From: Bacteroidales bacterium
GTDB taxonomy: Bacteria; Bacteroidota; Bacteroidia; Bacteroidales; DTU049
Reading direction: 5' to 3'
Assembly (NCBI GenBank): GCA_026418905.1
Contig: JAOAAK010000046.1
Span: 1 to 63,442 of the forward strand
DNA length: 63,442 nucleotides
In this document: positions 6,186 through 63,442 of the stretch, piece after piece
Layout: the number at the start of each line of letters is the position of its first letter
Numbering within the stretch: position 1 is the stretch's first letter
Made by a program: the position numbers and the translations under genes
The notes under the pieces: model-generated
Database searches by the model: none
Told to the model about the DNA's origin: nothing
The model's input: the letters and a program-made list of their open reading frames with translations, nothing else

Positions 6186-7031
6186 ATGAATGCCATCAAA
6201 ACCTTTTTCATTTTATTGTTAATGTTTGGTCTATTTCTTCTTGTTGGTTATGCAGTTGCTGGTGAAGAAGGTATGTGGATAGCCCTCATGTTAGCTACAA
6301 TTTTTAACGGATTGTCCTTTATTTTATCTGACAAAATTGCTTTGATGATGTATCGTGCTCGAAAAGTCAGCCCCGAAGAAGCTCCCGAATTACACAGAAT
6401 GGTTGAAGAGTTGGCAGATGAGGCAGGTATACCCAAGCCGGGTGTCTACATTTCTGAGATGGAGATTCCTAACGCTTTTGCCACCGGACGAAGTCCTAGA
6501 CGTTCAGCTGTGGCTGTAACACGTGGTTTGTTAAAATATCTCGACAAAAACGAATTAAAAGGAGTTCTTGCTCATGAAATTGCACACATCGAACATCGGG
6601 ATATCCTGACTGGAACTATTGCTGCAGTCATTGCAAGTGCCATATCATTCATAGCTCAAATGGCCTATTATGCAGGTTTTTTCTTAGGAAGAGATAGGAA
6701 CAATGGCGTAGGTAGTTTGTTATATTTGCTTGTATTAGCTATTCTTACACCTCTTATAGCTAGCATGCTTCAAATGGCCTTATCTCGCACAAGGGAATAT
6801 GCTGCCGATGAGCGAGGAGCAAGATTGGTAGGAAATCCACTTTACCTTGCCAATGCTTTGAGAAAGTTAGGGCTTTATACAGCCCATCGTCCAGCTTCAA
6901 CCAGCGAAATCAATCCCGCAACTTCACATATGCTCATTGTCAATCCCTTTAAGGGCGGTCTCGCTAATTTATTCAGTACTCACCCACCTATTGAAAAGCG
7001 CATTGCAAGACTCGAAAGTATGATCATTTAA
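6186..7031 (+). CDS. htpX: Membrane zinc metalloprotease HtpX
   Basis: The 281-residue protein has two N-terminal membrane segments (about 5-24 and 29-48), the zinc site HEIAH at 130-134, two more hydrophobic segments (about 143-167 and 178-199) and a downstream glutamate at about 204 in SRTREYAADERGA as third ligand. This matches family length and layout. HtpX is an inner-membrane M48 protease that degrades misfolded membrane proteins with its active site facing the cytosol. It lies 34 bases after the Nudix gene and probably shares its transcript. A strong intrinsic terminator follows at 7051-7087, inside the 3' end of the opposing AsmA-like gene. Confidence 0.95.
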   Translation: MNAIKTFFILLLMFGLFLLVGYAVAGEEGMWIALMLATIFNGLSFILSDKIALMMYRARKVSPEEAPELHRMVEELADEAGIPKPGVYISEMEIPNAFATGRSPRRSAVAVTRGLLKYLDKNELKGVLAHEIAHIEHRDILTGTIAAVIASAISFIAQMAYYAGFFLGRDRNNGVGSLLYLLVLAILTPLIASMLQMALSRTREYAADERGARLVGNPLYLANALRKLGLYTAHRPASTSEINPATSHMLIVNPFKGGLANLFSTHPPIEKRIARLESMII

Positions 7032-7039
7032 AATAACTT

Positions 7040-9571
7040 TTATTCGTCCTCCCATTCAACCTTAAATATAGGTTGAATGGGTTTTTTGTTTTGATTTTCA
7101 TGAATGGTATCTCTTTTCTTAAATAGAAATTCCTTCTGAAACGCTTCTTTCAGTTCTGAGCGTTGCCGTTCAATGTTCTCTTTCACTATTTCTTTGATGG
7201 TTAATCCGCTCACTTCAAATTTTGGGTTATCGACCGTACCAGTGACTCCTATGTAAATGGAAGGGTCATTAATACGACTTCTAACTACCTCCCCGTATTC
7301 ACTTTCTGGAGCTGATTTAATTTTTTTACGTTTGAGTTCACTGTATTTTATCTCAACTTGATATTCTACCTTCCCATCAAAGGTTTGCATACCTTCGATC
7401 CATAAATTACCCACACTGGATTTGATGAGCATTCTGTCGAGATAAACTGTCTGATCAGCAACGACAACCCGACCGTTTAATTTCTCGAACCGTACGTGTT
7501 CGAAATCTCTATCTTTTAAGTACTTTTTTAAATCATTTAAAGGGGCATAGCCAATCAATTCTCCATTTTCCATGCTAATGATGAAATCAAGTCCTATGGT
7601 CGAATCGATGACTTCACCTTTTTTCGATACGTCAAAAGCAACATTTCCCTTTACATTAGCTTTTCCCCTAATATGATTATAAGTAATGGTCGTTTGATCG
7701 AAATTGTTAAATTCGTAAAATAATTCCCTTACATCAATAGAGGATACATCAACATTAATGTTGTATAGATCTTGATCTTTATGAGATTGAACAATAGCAT
7801 CAATTTTACCTTTACCACCTAAGGACTGAAAAGTAAAATTCTCAGCAATAATTTTATCTGAATAAACATATATTCTTCCTTTAATGTTTTTCACGGAAAG
7901 GTTGCCATAAAGAAATTCATCTACCCGCAATTTCAATGAACCAGTCAATAGAGGCAAGCCAGTTGAATGATGAGAACCATCGGATGAAGTGGATATAAAG
8001 ACCGTATCGATGTCTTTATAAAGTATCCGTTGAGAATAAATTTGCCCATCTACAATAACTTCTTCAGAGCTAAAGAGATGAATCCACGGACTGATGGTCA
8101 TTTTTCCACTTACATCTGAATTTCCGAAAACACATGATAAACTGTCCACGAAAAGCTTGTTTTCGTTGATGTTAAGTCGAGCTTGTAGATGCTCAATAGG
8201 CATGGGCATATCTGTGTATTGTATGGTTACGTTATGAAGTTTTATATCAGTCCATATTTTTTTCCGGTCCCAATGATCATCGAACATTTGATGAAAAGAA
8301 TCAAACTTATCATCCAGTCGAAGTAAAACCCGAGCTTCCCCCTCAAACACTTTAAAATCATTCAATTTAAACCATTTTTGCAAAGATGATAAATTCATTT
8401 CTCCTTCCATTTCAAATTTAATGGATGGTTGAAGGAAATTGCGAATCTTCAATCTGCTTTTCCAATTTCGTTCATCCAGTTTGTAACTTAAATCGTTGAT
8501 CTCCAAAACATAAGTTCTCAAATCATTTGATTTTTGAGCCTTAAGTTGCATACTGAATTGCATATCATGTAATGAAACTCGTGAATCCGGATCCATCACA
8601 TGTCCTTTCATCACCCGAATGTTTGAACTAATAGCAGGAAACGATGTTTTTGAGAACTTCCCCGAAATACTGAAGTCTAAGGAAACATTACCTTTTATTT
8701 CATATTTTTTGATTTCTTCCAGCCATTGATGAGGCAGCAACGAAAACAAATCTTTAAAAGTAGTTTGGTTAAGTGTTGCTTGTGCATTGATATGTCCGTT
8801 TTCCCAATGATAATGACCCTGGGTTTTTAGCCTTACATTCTCCAAACGCAGATCTGCATTGCTCCACATGATCATGAATTTGTCTGTGTTTACTTGGAAT
8901 TTTCCTTGGGCCTTCACTTTTTTATTCTTACATATTTCATATGAATCAAGTTCGAGGGTAAAACGATCGAATTCGGCATCCTGTTTTACATCAAAAACGT
9001 TTTCATAAAAATTTCCTTGAGCTTTCATTTGATTAACAAGGCACTTGATCATCAGCCTATTGTAGTTGTCCTTGTATGTGAATGCAACATTTTTTATCTG
9101 AATTTGCTTAAGTTCTATTATAAAATCCCGAGAACGAGTGTTACCTGTCGTATCTGTTTTCCATATTTCATAGTTTGCCACCCCTTTATTAGTTACTTGC
9201 ATGTTTAGAAAACCATCCATTACGTTAATTTGGTTGAGTACGTAATTTTTTTTCAATAAATCCCATAAATTAAAGCTAAATCCTATGGTTTTAACTTGTA
9301 AAAGAACTGAATCTTTTGTTTTGAAATTTACACATCGAACCCCGTGAAGAACTATTGTCAAATCAGGAAAATTCTGAAATACGGTGTAATCTATTTTTTC
9401 AATGTAAATACGCGCATCTATGTGCTGGTTCAGAAGCTCTATGACATATTTCTCAATCTGAGTCCGATGAAGCCATGCCCAAAAAATAACTCCTGACATA
9501 AGCAAAAACAAAACCAAAAAGGAAATCAGAAAAATTTTGATTACTTTTTTCCATGCAACTCTTCGTTTCAT
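7040..9571 (-). CDS. AsmA-family membrane-anchored protein
   Basis: The start is taken at the ATG ending at 9571, seven bases after thiL, giving 843 residues; an ATG ten codons upstream overlaps thiL. A basic start (MKRRVAWKKVIK) and one membrane segment precede the family N-terminal motif (IEKIDYTVFQNFPDLTI). A long beta-rich periplasmic region follows, with the AsmA C-terminal section near residues 690-790. AsmA-like proteins are thought to form hydrophobic grooves that carry phospholipids between inner and outer membranes; the role of this member is inferred. The C-terminal tail is charged and carries the opposing htpX terminator in its coding bases. Placement behind thiL suggests one transcript. 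Confidence 0.85.
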   Translation of the reverse strand: MKRRVAWKKVIKIFLISFLVLFLLMSGVIFWAWLHRTQIEKYVIELLNQHIDARIYIEKIDYTVFQNFPDLTIVLHGVRCVNFKTKDSVLLQVKTIGFSFNLWDLLKKNYVLNQINVMDGFLNMQVTNKGVANYEIWKTDTTGNTRSRDFIIELKQIQIKNVAFTYKDNYNRLMIKCLVNQMKAQGNFYENVFDVKQDAEFDRFTLELDSYEICKNKKVKAQGKFQVNTDKFMIMWSNADLRLENVRLKTQGHYHWENGHINAQATLNQTTFKDLFSLLPHQWLEEIKKYEIKGNVSLDFSISGKFSKTSFPAISSNIRVMKGHVMDPDSRVSLHDMQFSMQLKAQKSNDLRTYVLEINDLSYKLDERNWKSRLKIRNFLQPSIKFEMEGEMNLSSLQKWFKLNDFKVFEGEARVLLRLDDKFDSFHQMFDDHWDRKKIWTDIKLHNVTIQYTDMPMPIEHLQARLNINENKLFVDSLSCVFGNSDVSGKMTISPWIHLFSSEEVIVDGQIYSQRILYKDIDTVFISTSSDGSHHSTGLPLLTGSLKLRVDEFLYGNLSVKNIKGRIYVYSDKIIAENFTFQSLGGKGKIDAIVQSHKDQDLYNINVDVSSIDVRELFYEFNNFDQTTITYNHIRGKANVKGNVAFDVSKKGEVIDSTIGLDFIISMENGELIGYAPLNDLKKYLKDRDFEHVRFEKLNGRVVVADQTVYLDRMLIKSSVGNLWIEGMQTFDGKVEYQVEIKYSELKRKKIKSAPESEYGEVVRSRINDPSIYIGVTGTVDNPKFEVSGLTIKEIVKENIERQRSELKEAFQKEFLFKKRDTIHENQNKKPIQPIFKVEWEDE
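7051..7087 (+). terminator. Intrinsic terminator of htpX, embedded in the opposing gene
   Basis: An 11-base perfect stem (CCCATTCAACC at 7051-7061 with GGTTGAATGGG at 7071-7081) and a nine-base loop are followed by TTTTTT. It begins 20 bases after the htpX stop. The same bases encode the last residues (around PIQPIFKVEW) of the AsmA-like protein on the minus strand, where no T-tract follows the stem. It should therefore stop only plus-strand transcripts. Confidence 0.9.
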
Positions 9572-55961: not shown

Positions 55962-56642
55962 TTAGTATTTCTTCAACAAATCGGGGCGAAGCTTTAAAGT
56001 TTTTTTATAAGCTTGTTCATATCTCCATTCTTCAATTTTTTTACTATCACCAGAAAGCAATATGTCAGGAACCTTCCACCCTTTATATTCAGAAGGCCTA
56101 GTATAAACAGGCTCAGATAAAAGACCCGCCTGGAAGGAATCATGTAAAGCTGAAGTCTCGTCATGCAAAACACCAGGGATTAATCTAGTTACTGCATCTA
56201 TGACCACAGCTGCTGGCAATTCACCCCCTGTCAAAACATAATCCCCAATGGATATTTCCATTGTTACTAGGTTATCTCTAACTCGCTGATCAACGCCTTT
56301 GTAATGCCCGCATAGCAAAAGAAGATTACGTTGCAAGCTTAAACGATTGGCTATTGATTGAGTAAAAGGAATTCCATCAGGGGTCATAAAAATAATTTCA
56401 TCGTAAGAAATTTTTTGTTTTAAATCAGAAATAGCTCTATCGATAGGTTCTATCATCATAACCATCCCAGGACCTCCTCCATAAGGATAATCATCTACTC
56501 GTTTATGTTTATCTGTAGAATAGTTTCTAATATCGTGTACATAAATTTCTACTAATTTTTTTTCTCTTGCACGTTTTAAAATAGAATGATTTAAAAAACC
56601 TGAAAACATCTCTGGAAAAATCGTTAGAACATCAAATCGCAT
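55962..56642 (-). CDS. trmD: tRNA (guanine37-N1)-methyltransferase
   Basis: The 226-residue enzyme methylates G37 next to the anticodon with S-adenosylmethionine, which prevents frameshifting. Motifs are [11 protein letters not shown] at the start, [13 protein letters not shown] near 50-62, the trefoil-knot cofactor site [13 protein letters not shown] near 132 and the ending [18 protein letters not shown]. It is the first gene of the six-gene run down to 49264, preceded by a -7 match and the terminator of the giant cargo gene. It is not linked to rpsP or rimM here, unlike in many bacteria. Confidence 0.97.
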
Positions 56643-56663: not shown

Positions 56664-56671
56664 CATAAAAT

Positions 56672-56703
56672 AAAAAACCCCTGGAAAGGGGGAAAACCAG
56701 GGG
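56672..56703 (-). terminator. Intrinsic terminator of the giant T9SS cargo gene
   Basis: Read on the minus strand, CCCCTGG (56703-56697) pairs with CCAGGGG (56684-56678) around a 12-base loop and is followed by TTTTTT and more T/A-rich sequence. It lies 33 bases after the cargo stop and separates it from trmD. Confidence 0.88.
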
Positions 56704-56735
56704 CTAAAGTGACATGTGGTATATGTTATAGGGGG

Positions 56736-59700
56736 CTATTTAACTACTTCAAAAGGTATCACTATCATCTTATCTTGATATTGAACAATTAAATGATACA
56801 TTGCTGGTTGCAAATTTACAACAGGAATTTCAATAATGTTTACACCTTTTTTGATCAAATTTATGAATTGATACAACTTGTTTCCATAAAAATCGACAAC
56901 AAAAAGGTTAACATTTAAATCATATAATGAGCTGATAATCAATCTTATATTAGAATTACAATAGGCAGGATTAGGATATAGCCTTGCAAACAATATATCA
57001 TTGTTTGTATAAGATAAATCATCTTTCGTCAAATAAACAACATCACTCATAGTAAAATTACCATCATAATCAATCTGTTTTAATCTGTAAATAAATATAT
57101 CATTGGGTTGGTAAGCAAGATCATAATCAAACCATTGATATACTCTTTGTCCTACATGTGTTCCACTTCCAGGCACAAATCCCACTTCTGTAAACCAATT
57201 GTTAACCAGTTTTTCCACGATAAAACCTGCGTTATTTGTTTCAGTAGCTGTAACCCATTCAAGAACTCCATCTGCTCCCTGCCAAAATGCTTTTAAAGAC
57301 AAGTATTCAACAGGTAAAGGACTACATCCTGAAAAAGAATAAAATGAAGCTCCATCATAAAATCCTCCTTTATAAACAGGTGCTATGGGGCAATTAGCAG
57401 GTAATAATATATGATCAGATCCATCATAATTGCCACCACGCCACAAGCTATTAGGAGGACAATTTGCCACAGCTAAAACCACATCCGAACCATCATAGGG
57501 TCCACCACGCCATACACTGTTTGGAACGCATGTCGCTGCGAGAAAAAACCTATCTGTTCCATCATATGGACCACCTAACCATACACTATTTGGAATGCAA
57601 TTCGCTGCAAGAAAAACCCTATCTGTTCCATCGTATGGACCACCACGCCATAAAGGATTAGGATTGCAAATTGCATTCGCTATAATCACATCAGAACCAT
57701 CATAAGGACCACCTCTCCAAATAGCATTCATGGGGCATGAAGCATTTAAAACAAAGTGATCAGAGCCATCATAAAATCCTCCAACATAAATAGATTCCAA
57801 GCGAACATATAAGGAATCTTTTACCACTAAAGTACAAGATCCGTTGATCACATATAAGGTTACAACATTAAGACCTTCATCGTTAGGACCATAAATAATA
57901 CCAGTAGGATTTGGTTGATTGGAAGTAATCCCATTATCAAAATCCCAAAACCAGATAGTTGGTGGTGCTGAAATCACATTGCTTGTATTGCTGAAAAAAT
58001 TAATTGGAACATTACCACTAACGTAAAATCCATTCTGTGGAGGTTGTCTAGTAATAAAAGCAGAAGGCAAAGGATAGACGGGCACAGGTATGATCACCGT
58101 ATCACTTAAGCCGCTTACAAGATTAGTAACAATTAACATGACATTGTATTGTACTGTATCGGGAGTTGAAGGTATAGGATATAACCAACAAGGATTCACA
58201 GCATGAGATGTATCAGCTTGAGTGAAGGGGTCTCCAAAATCCCAGAAATATCTAATACTATCTCCTTGAGTTGATTGATTGACAAAACATATGCTATCTC
58301 CTGCACATCCATTAATAACCGTAAAATTTGCTACAGGACGAAAAGGATTGAATGGTTGGCAGCTTTGATTAGGAGTAGAATCAGCACGTACTGTTAATGA
58401 TAAAGAACCTGTAGCATTGATGGGTGTTACAACCTGAACGTAATAACTCATCCCATTGGTTTCCATGCAATGTAAGGTAAATTCAGTTAAAGCATCACTA
58501 TTGCATGGTCCCGCAGTCATAGCATTGCAGGAGCCATATAATATACGATAACGAATCTGGTTTGGTAAAGCTGTGGTATTTTCAGAGAGTTGAAATGACA
58601 AATTCACCTTAATGTTAAAGTTCAAATCCACTTTAAACCATGTAGATTTATACCCTGAAGGTCCAAATAAACATCCCATGGACGAACCATTTTCACCAAA
58701 GGATTCCCCTATCGAATGACAGTCAATTACCACACTACTAGAAACACTTCCGGGACCGTTTAAAACCATTGAAATGGGATCAATACACATATCGCCCGAC
58801 TGCCCAATAAGCCAAATTTTTGGAACAACATTTTCAATGGTATAACTACAACCTGTTAACATGATATAGTACGTTGCTGGATTTAAACATCCCTCTCCCC
58901 ATAAAGTTCCTCCCACGTTAATACTCGTTAGAGGCACCTGTTGCAATCCGGCTGAAGTACTATCGTTGGGAATAATTTCTTTAAACAACATCACATCCTG
59001 AGGATTGAAAGTTGTAGTTATTCCATCGATTGTATAATTAATTCGTATCTTCCCAGAGATAGAAGAAGTAAATTTATACCATAAAGTCCGAGTTCCACAA
59101 GTATTCTGATCAGTTGGAGCTTTTGTAGCACAAGCAAAATATCCCGTATCACCACGAAATTGGCCAGCTCCCAAAGCAACAGGTGTGTAGGGCGGCATCA
59201 CCTGATTAAGACCGTTGATTACATTGGCATCCACAAATTTATCATAACGCAAAGGTACAATAGGAACTCGATCAAACTTCACACTTACATCCACTTGATT
59301 AGAAACCATCATACCAGCATGTTCGTCGACTACAATAAAATACCGTCTCTTCCTTAGTGGCTCACATGGACTGATGGTAAAATTCACAGTTTCAAGATTT
59401 CCTGCACAACCATACCAGTCAAAAGTAGAATTGTTGATCACATACGTCAAACCTTGAGCATAAGTGCTATCTAACATTCCCATGCTTGCCAATGATGAAA
59501 ATGGAATGTTTCCATCCACATCGCTAAGGTATACCGTAAATGGTAATACAGGATTACTTTTATTAGGGGTTCGATTTCTTACCCTCACATAAACTCTACC
59601 CGGACCATTTACAACAAACGTATACCACAAATTCCTTCGAATAGGCACGTTGGTTGTTGAAAGTCCGTAATAAGCAGCTTCGTTCTGATCGATGGGATAC

Positions 59701-62700
59701 AAAATTGATGGCGAGTTATTTCCATAAGGATATAGACCATTCCAACATAAATTTTGAGGATCACTCAATCCAGGATCACTTGATGCTGCACCAGTTAAAC
59801 ACGATATAAAATCATCAGAAGGGGAACGGGCAGGATTTAATGGATTGACATCCCCTATTTTCCCAAAATACCAAACACTATCACCTGGAATTAGATCAAA
59901 ATCATATGCACGCAATGCACGATCGAAACGAGATTCATAAATTGAATCTACATAAATTCGTGGCGTAAAACTTGTACCTATGTGACTGTTGTTCCCAAAT
60001 ACTACCAATGTATAATAACCTGGCTGTAAACGACAAAAATCAACTTTCCCATACCAGGTCCACCATGTTCTCTCATAATGATCAATGTTTGTTCTATATA
60101 TGCATGGCTGAATAGGTGGTGATGTAGGCATGAGTTGACTATCTACCCTTACATCAAGTGAATATAGTCGTAATGGCATGGATGAAGGCACATCCATAAT
60201 ACTTACAAAAGATTCTTTTGTTAACCTAAAAACAAAATATGCCACGCGATTAAAACCTGTTGGACATGGATCGATGGGATGTGTTGAAAAAGGAGTGTCT
60301 GCTCTGCAGTTCATCCATTCAGTACCAAACGTATATACTCGTGACATATTTGGATAAGTAGGTGTACCACTGTTAGGTCCATAATCTGTGATTCCTGCGT
60401 AATAAGCCTTATTTGGCCTGTTATATTTTGGGTTTGGTAAATTAGTCAACCATAAACTTATATTATTGGTAGCACCAATTAATCCGCCACTGTAAGTAGG
60501 ACCTGTATAGGAACCTCCATATCCATAACTTACCACAGTATACCATCCTGGTGGAAAAAAAGTACACTGATTATTAAAAGAAGAGCGACATCCTAAATCC
60601 CCTACTCCGGGTATGTTAGCACTTACAGGACCACCTGTTGATAATCTCCCATAAAATAAACGAAACAATCCACTTGTTGTTGAAATATTCAACAACATTG
60701 GTTCATTTATATAAAACTCCCTATATATTTGTTTTGCATCCGTATAACAAGGATTTCGCCCATCGATAGTCATAGGATTATTAATGCATGAAAAATAATC
60801 CACTGTTCCAATTACAGTACCATTTTGTAAAGAAGAGGTAATATCTCCCAAATTGTTAGGTGAAGAAGGGTTTGAAAATTGAGTAACAACTTCTCTGAAC
60901 ATGACCCACGGTCTAGATGAACGACCTACATCAGTACTGTCACCAAAAGTGACCAATGTATAAACTCCAGGTTCCACACAAACTGAGACACTATAGTAAA
61001 AATCTGTACACCCAAACATTTCTACCAAGCCATTGATATATTCTCCATAAGAAAAAGCACCCTGTGCTGTAGCTAATGCAGAAGCATCTCCTCGATACAA
61101 TTTATGCAATAAGTATGGAGTATATCCACCAATAGTCAATATCCCATATCTGTCGATATAAATTGTCCTATAAACTGCCTTTTTACTTGTTAAATTCCAA
61201 TTATGACAAACTCCATTTGCAGGTAGGACTGTATTTTGGCAGCTAAAATATGCTTCTGTACTATAGACGTAAACATTATTTGGCAAAGGGTTCCAATGAT
61301 TCACTGAATCTACTTCTCCTGTATCCGTCAGCTGAAACTGCGTATATATGTCCACCTCATAAACACCTATACTAACATTAGCTGACATACCTAAATTATT
61401 ATAATAGTAACTAGTTACATTTGAAACTGTGTCTAACTTTCCCAATATTTGCAATGAATATGTACCAGCCGGCAAACAGTTATATGTAACATCTCCTCCC
61501 GTGAATTGCCAAAATGGACTTAAATTACAATTTAACTCTACATCACCTTGATACAATATTTTGCCCAAATTACCATCTATGACAAATCGTACATTAGCAT
61601 CTTCAAGTATAGTAAACTTATACCATGTACTTAAAACATATGTTTGTCCCCCCCAACTTATTTGTCCACTTGGTGGATTCACAGTTCCACAAACATTGTC
61701 CCTAATAAATGCATTACAGGCAAGGACATCTGTACCATAAGTCCAACTTCCACCAGGAGATCCAGGTAAAATTCCTAGTTCATTGGTGGGGTGAATATTT
61801 GAAGGATTAGGTGACTTGGTCATTCCACTGCCTCTTTCATACAACCGTATTCGGACTGTGTTTGAGTAATCTTTATGGTAAAAAATCTGAATAGAATATG
61901 TTGTATTGGGCTCTAGCTCGCACAACCAACTGACACCAGCATAATATGGATCGCCATAATATTGACCAGTTGGTTGTAATACCTTGCAGCCATCAATTAA
62001 AACTAAAGAAGACATAGGTGTTGTTCGGACGTCACCTTTGTAAAGATTAATACCCACTTTTAAATTTCCTGTATACTTCCCATATGCTTCGCTAATCTCA
62101 AATCGGATCAAGTCTACGAAATTATCTGTGGTAAATACATGCCACGTAGTTTGTTTATAGTCTAAATAATTTGATCCCAACGCCGGACAAACCTCTCCAT
62201 TATTTTCTATGGTTTGGCAACCTACGTCAAAGGTGTATGTGTGCCATCCTCCAGAAATAGTTCCCAGGTTCTGTGCAGTTGATGGCCGATCGAACTGATT
62301 GAGAACTTGAGGATAATCTAAGGTTAATTTCAAGAAAATAGAATCATTAGCATTCAATTTACTACTGACCTGCACAAGATAATGACCTGGTAAAAGACAA
62401 GGATTATAGGTTGATCCAAATTTATTCAAGGGAGTAAGTTTTGCTGGAGGAATTTGCGCAGCCCCAGGTAAACACGAAGAAGCATAGTATACGGTAAAAC
62501 CAACAGCATCTTCGGGCAAATCGTTTCTAGGTTGCATAAGTTTTAGGTCCACAGCTCGTGCTGTGGGCAAATAAAAGGAATACCATACGGATTTTTTATC
62601 TGTACCTGCTGAAATATGAACCGGGTGAAAGTATTCACCTGTTTGAATGGTTGCACCTGTTAAATTAATTGTATCGGAATAGAAAATACCTAGTGAAAAA

Positions 62701-62828
62701 CCAGAAGAAGGTATATCAATTGGTAAATGATTAACACATTGATCATTAATGGGTTGAGAATATAACTTAATTATTCCCATCCATAATACAAGTAAACAAT
62801 AAAAATAAAAAGAAATTTTATTTAACAT
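56736..62828 (-). CDS. Giant surface protein with repeats, PKD domains and T9SS type A sorting domain
   Basis: The 2030-residue product has a signal peptide (MLNKISFYFYCLLVLWMGIIKLYSQ). About seven or eight jelly-roll modules resembling bacterial pre-peptidase C-terminal domains follow, each with a Cys-containing DYFSC-type segment and WYKF or equivalent, up to about residue 1490. Two PKD-like modules (YFWDFGD, IWFWDFDNG) lie near 1500-1670. Seven 23-residue GGxYDG repeats span 1681-1841. A common pre-sorting domain (LEWVTATETNNAGFIVEKL) and a type A sorting domain (LYPNPAYCNSN) end the chain. It should be exported by T9SS and anchored on the surface; adhesion is the likeliest role. No peptidase or glycosidase motif is visible. 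Confidence 0.85.
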   Translation of the reverse strand: MLNKISFYFYCLLVLWMGIIKLYSQPINDQCVNHLPIDIPSSGFSLGIFYSDTINLTGATIQTGEYFHPVHISAGTDKKSVWYSFYLPTARAVDLKLMQPRNDLPEDAVGFTVYYASSCLPGAAQIPPAKLTPLNKFGSTYNPCLLPGHYLVQVSSKLNANDSIFLKLTLDYPQVLNQFDRPSTAQNLGTISGGWHTYTFDVGCQTIENNGEVCPALGSNYLDYKQTTWHVFTTDNFVDLIRFEISEAYGKYTGNLKVGINLYKGDVRTTPMSSLVLIDGCKVLQPTGQYYGDPYYAGVSWLCELEPNTTYSIQIFYHKDYSNTVRIRLYERGSGMTKSPNPSNIHPTNELGILPGSPGGSWTYGTDVLACNAFIRDNVCGTVNPPSGQISWGGQTYVLSTWYKFTILEDANVRFVIDGNLGKILYQGDVELNCNLSPFWQFTGGDVTYNCLPAGTYSLQILGKLDTVSNVTSYYYNNLGMSANVSIGVYEVDIYTQFQLTDTGEVDSVNHWNPLPNNVYVYSTEAYFSCQNTVLPANGVCHNWNLTSKKAVYRTIYIDRYGILTIGGYTPYLLHKLYRGDASALATAQGAFSYGEYINGLVEMFGCTDFYYSVSVCVEPGVYTLVTFGDSTDVGRSSRPWVMFREVVTQFSNPSSPNNLGDITSSLQNGTVIGTVDYFSCINNPMTIDGRNPCYTDAKQIYREFYINEPMLLNISTTSGLFRLFYGRLSTGGPVSANIPGVGDLGCRSSFNNQCTFFPPGWYTVVSYGYGGSYTGPTYSGGLIGATNNISLWLTNLPNPKYNRPNKAYYAGITDYGPNSGTPTYPNMSRVYTFGTEWMNCRADTPFSTHPIDPCPTGFNRVAYFVFRLTKESFVSIMDVPSSMPLRLYSLDVRVDSQLMPTSPPIQPCIYRTNIDHYERTWWTWYGKVDFCRLQPGYYTLVVFGNNSHIGTSFTPRIYVDSIYESRFDRALRAYDFDLIPGDSVWYFGKIGDVNPLNPARSPSDDFISCLTGAASSDPGLSDPQNLCWNGLYPYGNNSPSILYPIDQNEAAYYGLSTTNVPIRRNLWYTFVVNGPGRVYVRVRNRTPNKSNPVLPFTVYLSDVDGNIPFSSLASMGMLDSTYAQGLTYVINNSTFDWYGCAGNLETVNFTISPCEPLRKRRYFIVVDEHAGMMVSNQVDVSVKFDRVPIVPLRYDKFVDANVINGLNQVMPPYTPVALGAGQFRGDTGYFACATKAPTDQNTCGTRTLWYKFTSSISGKIRINYTIDGITTTFNPQDVMLFKEIIPNDSTSAGLQQVPLTSINVGGTLWGEGCLNPATYYIMLTGCSYTIENVVPKIWLIGQSGDMCIDPISMVLNGPGSVSSSVVIDCHSIGESFGENGSSMGCLFGPSGYKSTWFKVDLNFNIKVNLSFQLSENTTALPNQIRYRILYGSCNAMTAGPCNSDALTEFTLHCMETNGMSYYVQVVTPINATGSLSLTVRADSTPNQSCQPFNPFRPVANFTVINGCAGDSICFVNQSTQGDSIRYFWDFGDPFTQADTSHAVNPCWLYPIPSTPDTVQYNVMLIVTNLVSGLSDTVIIPVPVYPLPSAFITRQPPQNGFYVSGNVPINFFSNTSNVISAPPTIWFWDFDNGITSNQPNPTGIIYGPNDEGLNVVTLYVINGSCTLVVKDSLYVRLESIYVGGFYDGSDHFVLNASCPMNAIWRGGPYDGSDVIIANAICNPNPLWRGGPYDGTDRVFLAANCIPNSVWLGGPYDGTDRFFLAATCVPNSVWRGGPYDGSDVVLAVANCPPNSLWRGGNYDGSDHILLPANCPIAPVYKGGFYDGASFYSFSGCSPLPVEYLSLKAFWQGADGVLEWVTATETNNAGFIVEKLVNNWFTEVGFVPGSGTHVGQRVYQWFDYDLAYQPNDIFIYRLKQIDYDGNFTMSDVVYLTKDDLSYTNNDILFARLYPNPAYCNSNIRLIISSLYDLNVNLFVVDFYGNKLYQFINLIKKGVNIIEIPVVNLQPAMYHLIVQYQDKMIVIPFEVVK
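57306..57788 (-). repeat. Seven tandem 69-base in-frame repeats (GGxYDG)
   Basis: Units begin at 57788, 57719, 57650, 57581, 57512, 57443 and 57374, each 69 bases. They encode 23 residues with the core WxGGxYDG(S/T)D, one central cysteine and PNS or a similar turn. The four middle units are closest to one another and the terminal ones diverge, which fits expansion from the centre. The phase is preserved throughout. Confidence 0.9.
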
Positions 62829-62849: not shown

Positions 62850-63442
62850 TTAACGAACCCCTCTTCCGCCACGACTTTCATATCGAGTATTGTAATCGGT
62901 ATTATTTATTTGAGATCTATCAGAAACTCTACAATTATTTTGACTACTAAAAAACCACCCTCCACGAACCACAAAATTTCTATTAACTGGCCAGGTAGGT
63001 TGATTATAAGAACCTATAGCATCAAGAATTCCATCTCCCCAAATGCCCACATAACTCGAAGGGGTTGCAGGATTAGATTGATTTTCATTAATTTGAATAC
63101 ATTGTTCTCCAGCATTACCACTCAGTTCCATAACGCCATAATAAGAACCGCCTGTTTGTTCTCTTGAAAGAGTACGATCGCGTGCAAATATTCCCACCTC
63201 CAGCACAGCTCCATATGTAGAAGAACCATAGCTTCCACCACGAATATACCAATCGCTTCCGCCAAAATTTAAATTTGCTCCAACATTGGTACATGTATCT
63301 GTACCTGGACCAGCAGGTGTTGAAATGTTAATTGCTTCAACAAAGGATGTAGTTCCCCATGCATATTCATTGGGTATGAAGTCTTTAGGACCACGACAGA
63401 CCTTTTCATATTCTAATTCCGTCATTGGTCTAAGACATGCCC
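62850..63442 (-). CDS. FGE/SUMF1-fold protein, 5' end beyond the window
   Basis: The reading frame stays open to base 63442, with CLRPMTELEYEK joining the visible start, so at least 197 residues belong to a longer protein. The pattern is that of the formylglycine-generating enzyme fold: RPMTELEYEKVCRG, VMELSGNAGEQC, then VVRGGWFF and NCRVSDR, ending GGRGVR. Aerobic FGE uses two cysteines in its C-terminal part; only one (in NCRVS) is visible at the usual place. The catalytic function is doubtful, and it may be a binding domain as in related C-type-lectin-like proteins. It lies 21 bases before the giant T9SS cargo gene and probably shares its transcript. Confidence 0.8.
   Translation of the reverse strand, partial: ACLRPMTELEYEKVCRGPKDFIPNEYAWGTTSFVEAINISTPAGPGTDTCTNVGANLNFGGSDWYIRGGSYGSSTYGAVLEVGIFARDRTLSREQTGGSYYGVMELSGNAGEQCIQINENQSNPATPSSYVGIWGDGILDAIGSYNQPTWPVNRNFVVRGGWFFSSQNNCRVSDRSQINNTDYNTRYESRGGRGVR

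Follow-up and report, generated by a model that had tools for sequence, protein, structure and literature searches.

GG-motif array in a predicted giant surface protein of a Bacteroidales bacterium, its genetic linkage to FGE-fold genes and its candidate role as a docking strip

FGE enzymes act on a CxPxR (C-x-P/A-x-R) site in sulfatases by means of a cysteine pair near the C-terminus, and the usual annotation of FGE-fold proteins without this catalytic pair is as formylglycine-generating or SUMF1 enzymes. Cohesin–dockerin cellulosome scaffolds, on the cell surface, bind a dedicated partner at sites that recur along the chain. The FGE-like fold without the catalytic cysteine pair is also found in proteins tied to the type IX secretion system (T9SS), where it is used for protein contacts (PorK, GldK and GldJ), PorK being described as a docking hub (PMC12421860). 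Variable proteins of diversity-generating retroelements (DGRs) have a C-type-lectin/FGE fold with a hypervariable C-terminus (PMC8144416); Treponema variable protein 1 (PDB 2y3c) is one of them.

The locus described here lies in a stretch of 63,442 nt (‘the window’) from a Bacteroidales bacterium, contig JAOAAK010000046.1 (GCA_026418905.1), and pairs an array of GG motifs with FGE-like genes just upstream (‘partners’). Partners resemble PorK, GldK and GldJ in the features given above, but have an extra N-terminal beta domain, rarely show a lipobox-like start (2/120 FGE-like ORFs) and stand beside one cargo gene. With DGR variable proteins they share an FGE-type fold and a hypervariable C-terminus, and at one locus (L081) a TR–VR–Avd–RT cassette with adenine-specific mismatches; in contrast to DGR systems, the 78 other scanned loci have no cassette and the partner is coupled to a T9SS-type motif protein. 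PDB 2y3c was matched only by a PorK/GldK-like query, not by partner queries. As in the T9SS type A and type B cargo families, a sorting domain was found over the cut-off, though in only 9/19 motif proteins scanned (eight Por_Secre_tail, one CHU_C), and no Pfam or NCBIfam model covered the GG motif in scanned proteins, save for a sub-cut-off stretch in L174 (beta-solenoid match PF24078, 27.8 bits). The working plan proposed below is like that of cohesin and dockerin, although in this case it is a short peptide that recurs, and the variable face would be on the partner; we know of no sequence relation between the two pairs. No description of the FGE-like/motif gene pair was found in titles and abstract openings of the open-access literature, which is weak evidence, subscription papers and preprints lying outside that scope; for type IX secretion together with DGRs the same literature yielded a rumen-virus review only, and a word search of a DGR survey (PMC8144416) found neither ‘type IX’ nor ‘sorting’.

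The features of the window and of its genome (G000) are as follows.

56736..62828, minus strand: ORF of the 2030-aa array protein, with orthologues in G008 and G001
58176..58340, minus strand: PKD-like region, residues 1497–1551 (PKD_4, E 1.2e-4, 22.5 bits, below the curated cut-off of 27)
57306..57788, minus strand: array of seven 23-residue GG-motif units, residues 1681–1841, the seventh divergent
57788–57720, 57719–57651, 57650–57582, 57581–57513, 57512–57444, 57443–57375 and 57374–57306, minus strand: the array units
57009..57305, minus strand: beta-strand domain after the array, residues 1842–1940 (AlphaFold2 pLDDT 64–85, in blocks of ten)
56769..56981, minus strand: weak T9SS type A sorting domain, residues 1950–2020 (Por_Secre_tail, E 0.23)
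62850..63440, minus strand: second FGE-fold (SUMF1-like) gene, 3′ part only, lying upstream of the array ORF across a 21-nt gap and truncated at the contig end
G000:C3:3–464, minus strand: another part of the second FGE-fold gene, covering positions 12–163 of profile A5 (window part, 297–491)
G000:C3:486–1946, minus strand: first FGE-fold gene of the window genome, on a contig other than the window

The array protein has a signal-peptide-like start (by eye), a cysteine-containing stretch of some 1480 aa, the PKD-like region, the array, the beta domain and a T9SS-type end. The first-pass annotation had placed the array before the sorting domain; the order is right, but a beta stretch of about 100 residues intervenes and the sorting-domain match is weak (12.2 bits against a cut-off of 27). 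At the matching place the L019 orthologue comes just below the cut-off (E 2.6e-5, 24.9 bits), and in the more distant L070 protein, of comparable size and with an array, the domain reaches 43.1 bits. A T9SS core gene is present in the window genome, in the form of a PorK/GldK-like gene on contig C32 (phmmer to PorK, E 1.3e-106).

Starts of [FYW]xGGxxxG within the ORF fall at residues 1681, 1704, 1727, 1750, 1773, 1796 and 1819, every one of the six intervals being 23 residues (69 nt), which confirms the annotated span and its exact 69-base period across seven units; 1000 shuffles of the whole protein's composition gave a mean of 0.18 motifs and a maximum of 3. One cysteine per unit, likewise proposed, is borne out (residues 1698 to 1813 at 23-residue steps, then 1835, one residue early). 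The suggested consensus, WxGGxYDG(S/T)D, describes most units, with W in 5/7 (Y in units 1 and 7) and (S/T)D in 6/7 (GAS in unit 7), and the close identity ascribed to the middle units holds for units 3 and 4 (84% of DNA letters) but not for the other pairs among units 1–6 (46–71%). Tandem Repeats Finder reported 2.4 copies. Neither Pfam nor NCBIfam has a model covering the array, two NCBIfam matches far below cut-off (E 0.012 and 0.26) being taken as chance, and phmmer of the array against the PDB gave no chain better than E 0.26. AlphaFold2 modelled the array at pLDDT 26–43 (in blocks), with three-residue strands only, at low confidence.

Conservation among array relatives is confined to the GG, the DG, the cysteine and an aromatic residue. 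The second Asp of D-x-(S/T)-D, present in 6/6 full window units, is found in 1/6 units of G008, 3/6 of G001, 0/8 of G002:C56 and 12/14 of L033, and across the wider family the first is frequently replaced by S, N, R, G or P. The proposal that these acidic positions bind Ca2+ is therefore not supported, the second Asp not being kept in three family relatives. Cysteine is nearly all-or-none per array and, where present, almost always kept: among 20 partner arrays of at least three units, nine have one cysteine in ≥80% of inter-motif segments, ten have none and one is mixed. Since half of these arrays are cysteine-free, cysteine does not belong to the common, core function; cross-linking of neighbouring units, also proposed, is possible within the window array but would not be a shared function, and as seven is odd at least one cysteine would be left unpaired were pairing confined to the array. 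A Ca2+-binding, cysteine-cross-linked variator of surface length, as the first-pass annotation had it, would suit the D-x-(S/T)-D in 6/7 units and the cysteine in each, but, given the fate of both Asp positions in relatives and the equal copy number of two full orthologues, we consider it highly improbable.

Searching 59 relatives and scanning named genomes recovered full-length orthologues in G008 (60% identity) and G001 (58%), over about 2040 aa; their arrays are those of L031 (PHDB01000010.1, HGW-Bacteroidetes-6) and L032 (JAFGWG010000101.1, a Bacteroidales MAG), respectively. Each of these arrays has seven units, as does the window. Nine were found in G002:C56, with units 4–7 alike, and 14, mostly 22 residues apart, in a 3194-aa ORF of L033 (JAUIKE010000041.1, a Bacteroidia MAG). 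Copy number thus varies across genera, yet is seven in three of them. The earlier view of a T9SS-type cargo with a repeat array of differing copy number is supported by these relatives (7, 7, 7, 9 and 14 units); ongoing copy-number change in this lineage, as it was put, is not, the two full orthologues also having seven. Mean amino acid identity is 0.565 within the window array, against 0.449 and 0.406 to same-position units of relatives, which suggests that the window units have been homogenised or re-expanded.

Array profile A3, searched against 395 phylum genomes, matched the window genome alone, and the L089 array as query did not match the window genome. Arrays have thus diverged beyond the reach of profile searches, and it was by way of the partner gene that the wider family was reached. 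A match in G003:C34 (E 1.7e-5) was dropped, its ORFs showing no motif array on reading. Two further array proteins of G002, with other periods, were noted by eye beside FGE-like genes: one (L026 2014–3525) consists largely of IFxGGxxSGxDxxCYxQAD units plus a sorting domain, and the other (L196 1–1683) has YxGGxxDGY...C units ahead of PKD-like sequence.

Two FGE-like genes followed by the array gene, nearly touching, were seen in L019, L020, L022 and L033; the window genome has the same order, split over two contigs. In G008, G001, G002:C4 and L033 a pair of FGE-fold genes immediately precedes the array gene on its own strand, and FGE-like and array genes, taken as stop-to-stop ORFs, adjoin or overlap. 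These upstream genes give the best clue to what the array does, and they did not figure in the first-pass finding. PF03781 was over cut-off in the five full-length partners scanned (E 6.3e-8 to 1.2e-13); the window fragment alone gave no Pfam match. The partners are distinct from the PorK/GldK-like gene and from a second FGE-like gene, both on contig C32 of the window genome. A model of an FGE-like protein had a mean pLDDT of 42, with an N-terminal beta domain mostly at 62–83 (two blocks at 33 and 46), and a fold search returned nothing at E ≤ 0.001; owing to this low confidence and the empty search, no fold is claimed from models. A PDB search with the L026 partner gave nothing at a useful E.

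In the window genome the first FGE-like gene has on its upstream side an ORF (L197 2080–3258) resembling, by eye, a membrane-bound AraC-type regulator. On the 3′ side of the array gene, relatives have a gene for a 404–418-aa protein (L019 9478–10731, L020 3748–4977, L021 2766–3977, L024 3336–4586), the L019 copy of which carries a T9SS sorting domain; in its place the window has a trmD-like gene (55962–56642), separated from the array gene by a G+C-rich inverted repeat (56670–56706) that appears by eye to be a terminator.

Linkage was measured with profile A5 of the FGE-like family, which matched 53/393 genomes of the order, the window's included; with at most 3–4 candidates scored per genome, family counts are lower bounds. 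The order sample comprised 79 loci, these being the surroundings of all matches except those of the window genome and two already examined; the window's own family supplied four (L087 and L124 from G004, L159 and L160 from G002). The strict motif, [FYW]xGGxxxG, was set after reading 40 loci and then counted on all 79. It occurred in 47/69 same-strand downstream neighbours, compared with 5/50 upstream neighbours and 13/462 other ORFs, and composition shuffles of the downstream proteins gave a mean of 4.0/69 and a maximum of 10/69. The downstream count divides into 30/37 in the 40 loci read beforehand and 17/32 in the other 39. As the motif was drawn from the former, the fair tests are the latter (17/32) and a phylum sample with the motif fixed, in which 27/395 genomes matched, the window's included, giving 35 regions, all from genomes other than the window's and from outside the order. 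Here 22/31 downstream neighbours carried the motif, against 0/23 upstream neighbours and 3/243 other ORFs (shuffles: mean 1.4/31, maximum 5/31). We are therefore highly confident that the GG motif is genetically linked to an FGE-fold gene in many Bacteroidota, and the window array is an expanded form of this widespread motif.

No downstream ORF was assigned by rule in 12/81 clusters of the order (8 within 220 nt of the locus end) and 4/35 of the phylum sample (2 at the locus end); counting those not at a contig end (4 and 2) as misses gives 47/73 and 22/33. Misses were retained despite a visible relaxed motif (L080, L084, L088, L132, L148), where the overlap filter picked another ORF (L103, array ORF at 8391–9068) and where the contig ends within the gene (L159). 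The array gene is upstream in L079 (second cluster) and L085, the latter among the five upstream positives, and several of the 13 background ORFs are further array-like ORFs of the same clusters (L081, L092, L132, L136, L145). Some 30% of downstream neighbours have no strict motif; in distant members the neighbour can be housekeeping-looking (L171, L183–L185) or PorP/SprF-like (L147).

The converse search began from arrays. With the L089 array as query, 247 order genomes yielded 11 places in 10 genomes (G002:C99, G643:C69, G468:C16, G575:C699, G023:C472, G595:C1, G564:C335, G564:C378, G459:C61, G592:C3 and G517:C45), and FGE-like genes lay in the same cluster at 11/11. They also lie beside the arrays of G008, G001, G002:C4, G002:C35 and L033, which were likewise reached from the array side. 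In G002:C56, G002:C46 and G006:C247 the sequence ends 5′ of the array, and these places stand outside the array-first judgement.

By a slightly relaxed pattern, the 69 motif-bearing neighbours hold one motif in 41 cases, two in 8 and three or more in 20, with spacings in partner arrays from 18 to 36. Many single motifs come directly after the signal peptide (by eye), for example AQYTGGSGRGD. An LPVEL-type domain start often follows the motif in short motif proteins, as it does the window array.

Motif variants follow partner phylogeny. On a quick tree of 66 FGE-like proteins, motif class (GxGD, xxDG, xxSG or other) changed 20 times, compared with a shuffled mean of 33.3 (0/200 as low), and the GxGD class five times, compared with 15.9 (0/500 as low). 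One group with 99% SH-aLRT holds 14/18 GxGD members and spans five families of the order and three elsewhere in the phylum. Clustering was weaker for xxDG (16 vs 21.2) and xxSG (9 vs 12.0) and absent for ‘other’. This agreement shows joint evolution of motif and partner, not contact; together with the linkage, it could have arisen if two proteins that cooperate but never touch were inherited together.

The C-terminal region of the partner is hypervariable. Region 4833–10093 of L081 (G023:C472:9000–19336) is a diversity-generating retroelement targeting an FGE-fold gene.

6186–6328: variable repeat (VR)
6508–6915: Avd-like gene
6933–7994: reverse transcriptase (RT)
8151–8293: template repeat (TR)

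The last 132 coding bases of the L081 partner are variable repeat, and the 143-nt copy starts 1965 nt downstream; 23/23 mismatches between the two fall at template adenines. The RT matches RVT_1 at 75 bits, and Avd reaches 75.7 bits against a cut-off of 80. Just behind the cassette is a motif protein of three units with a sorting domain. With the template as reference, codons carrying A in either of their first two bases are those at which the family varies: mean entropy at template-A codons was 1.96, compared with 0.85 elsewhere, in 12 sequences of the window family, and 3.49 compared with 1.96 in 86 other sequences (three rows, two from L033 and one from G002:C99, fall outside both groups and were excluded). 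C-terminal variability of this kind fits a variable binding face, although part of it could come from exposed loops alone. A search for template repeats beside FGE-like genes at the 79 order loci found a cassette in 1/79, and the window genome (97% complete) gave no RVT_1 match; for these reasons variability outside L081 may be that of exposed loops. An RT at G002:C28 was rejected as a partner retroelement, as it stands beside ORFs that look CRISPR-associated (by eye) and not beside an FGE-like gene.

Among 100 FGE-like ORFs reaching the end of the model, 82 terminate no more than 20 residues from that point, and none of eight extended ORFs has a sorting domain, which makes a surface location for the partner a guess. 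A partner without its own surface signal, encoded beside a cargo with one, may be held or carried by that cargo.

The reading we prefer, on which we are evenly poised, is that the array is a multivalent docking strip for non-enzymatic FGE-fold binders. The array would amount to a row of seven docking peptides within a giant surface protein exported by the T9SS, and the core, aromatic-x-G-G-x-x-x-G, would be a widespread module working with a dedicated FGE-fold partner encoded by the gene or genes just upstream. That partner would be a C-type-lectin/FGE-type binding protein, not an enzyme, with a hypervariable C-terminal face that a retroelement appears to diversify in one of the genomes. Its sorting domain would take the scaffold across the outer membrane, the GG motifs of the scaffold holding or carrying out copies of the partner, and more motifs would mean more partner copies per scaffold. 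The repeat, the gene order, the linkage, the match of motif class to the partner tree, the lack of the cysteine pair and one retroelement with adenine-specific mismatches are observed, and PorK offers a precedent for docking by such a fold; motif–partner binding, multivalency and the cell-surface end point are inferred. A broader extension is put forward tentatively, with doubt outweighing belief: a two-gene display of Bacteroidota in which a T9SS scaffold with 1 to at least 15 GG docking peptides presents an FGE-fold binder without its own sorting signal, its face diversified by retroelements or by fast evolution, as a multivalent, variable surface receptor or adhesin on a cohesin–dockerin-like plan.

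The array may instead be a structural stalk or solenoid, perhaps stapled by cysteines of neighbouring units, acting as a spacer for the giant protein's head, FGE-like proteins belonging to the same surface structure without binding the motif. The fixed 23-residue period, a cysteine in each of the seven units, the nine of 20 arrays with one in nearly every unit and the differing unit numbers among relatives would all accord with this, but the 41/69 motif-bearing neighbours with just one motif, which in many lies close behind the signal peptide, cannot be stalks, ten of the 20 arrays are cysteine-free and the model offers only three-residue strands of low confidence; such a role is rather unlikely. 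More doubtful again is that the FGE-like protein is an enzyme modifying a residue of the GG motif, with the array as a multi-site substrate. An FGE fold beside a short linear motif invites the idea, and C-x-P, found in several window units and most orthologue units, resembles the start of the FGE site. In PDB 6s07, an FGE, C-x4-C follows just after GG-S-[FY] (GG-S-F), yet it is found in 0/101 and 0/33 partner tails of 75 aa (0/134), and profile A5 has no invariant cysteine. The cysteine contexts of the window units (CPMNA, CNPNP, CIPNS, CVPNS, CPPNS, CPIAP and CSPLP) have no Arg at the fifth place, many motifs have no cysteine nearby, and a C-terminal region that is hypervariable, and once retroelement-diversified, is unlike an active site. 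Formylglycine formation on the array cysteines, first suggested by C-x-P near an FGE gene, was rejected on the missing cysteine pair, the missing substrate Arg and the frequent lack of cysteine.

Least probable of these three is that the GG motif, at a mature N-terminus or before C-terminal domains, serves a different factor as a signal for processing, anchoring or sorting, with no more than co-regulation of the FGE-like gene: the position near the signal-peptide end in many single-motif proteins (by eye) speaks for it, whereas the motif is tied to its FGE-like neighbour and rare in surrounding ORFs (13/462 and 3/243), its variants track the FGE-like tree, and long internal arrays are ill-suited to a terminal signal. 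Docking, by comparison, would give a testable function both to a motif that has no family model and occurs in surface proteins across many Bacteroidota, and to an FGE-fold family lacking the catalytic pair. If it is true, FGE-like proteins without a sorting signal would have a route to the surface, and T9SS display would be tied to retroelement-made diversity.

FGE-like ORFs of L162 (495–2714), L163 (7230–9533) and L173 (1013–3397), 740–795 aa in length, have two PF03781 stretches per chain and single-motif partners. Those of L126 (4955–7855), L133, L137 and L144 (G749) have 933–985 aa; the L126 ORF, the sole one scanned, carries a fused ALK_LTK_GRD domain, which is rich in glycine (E 7.1e-36).
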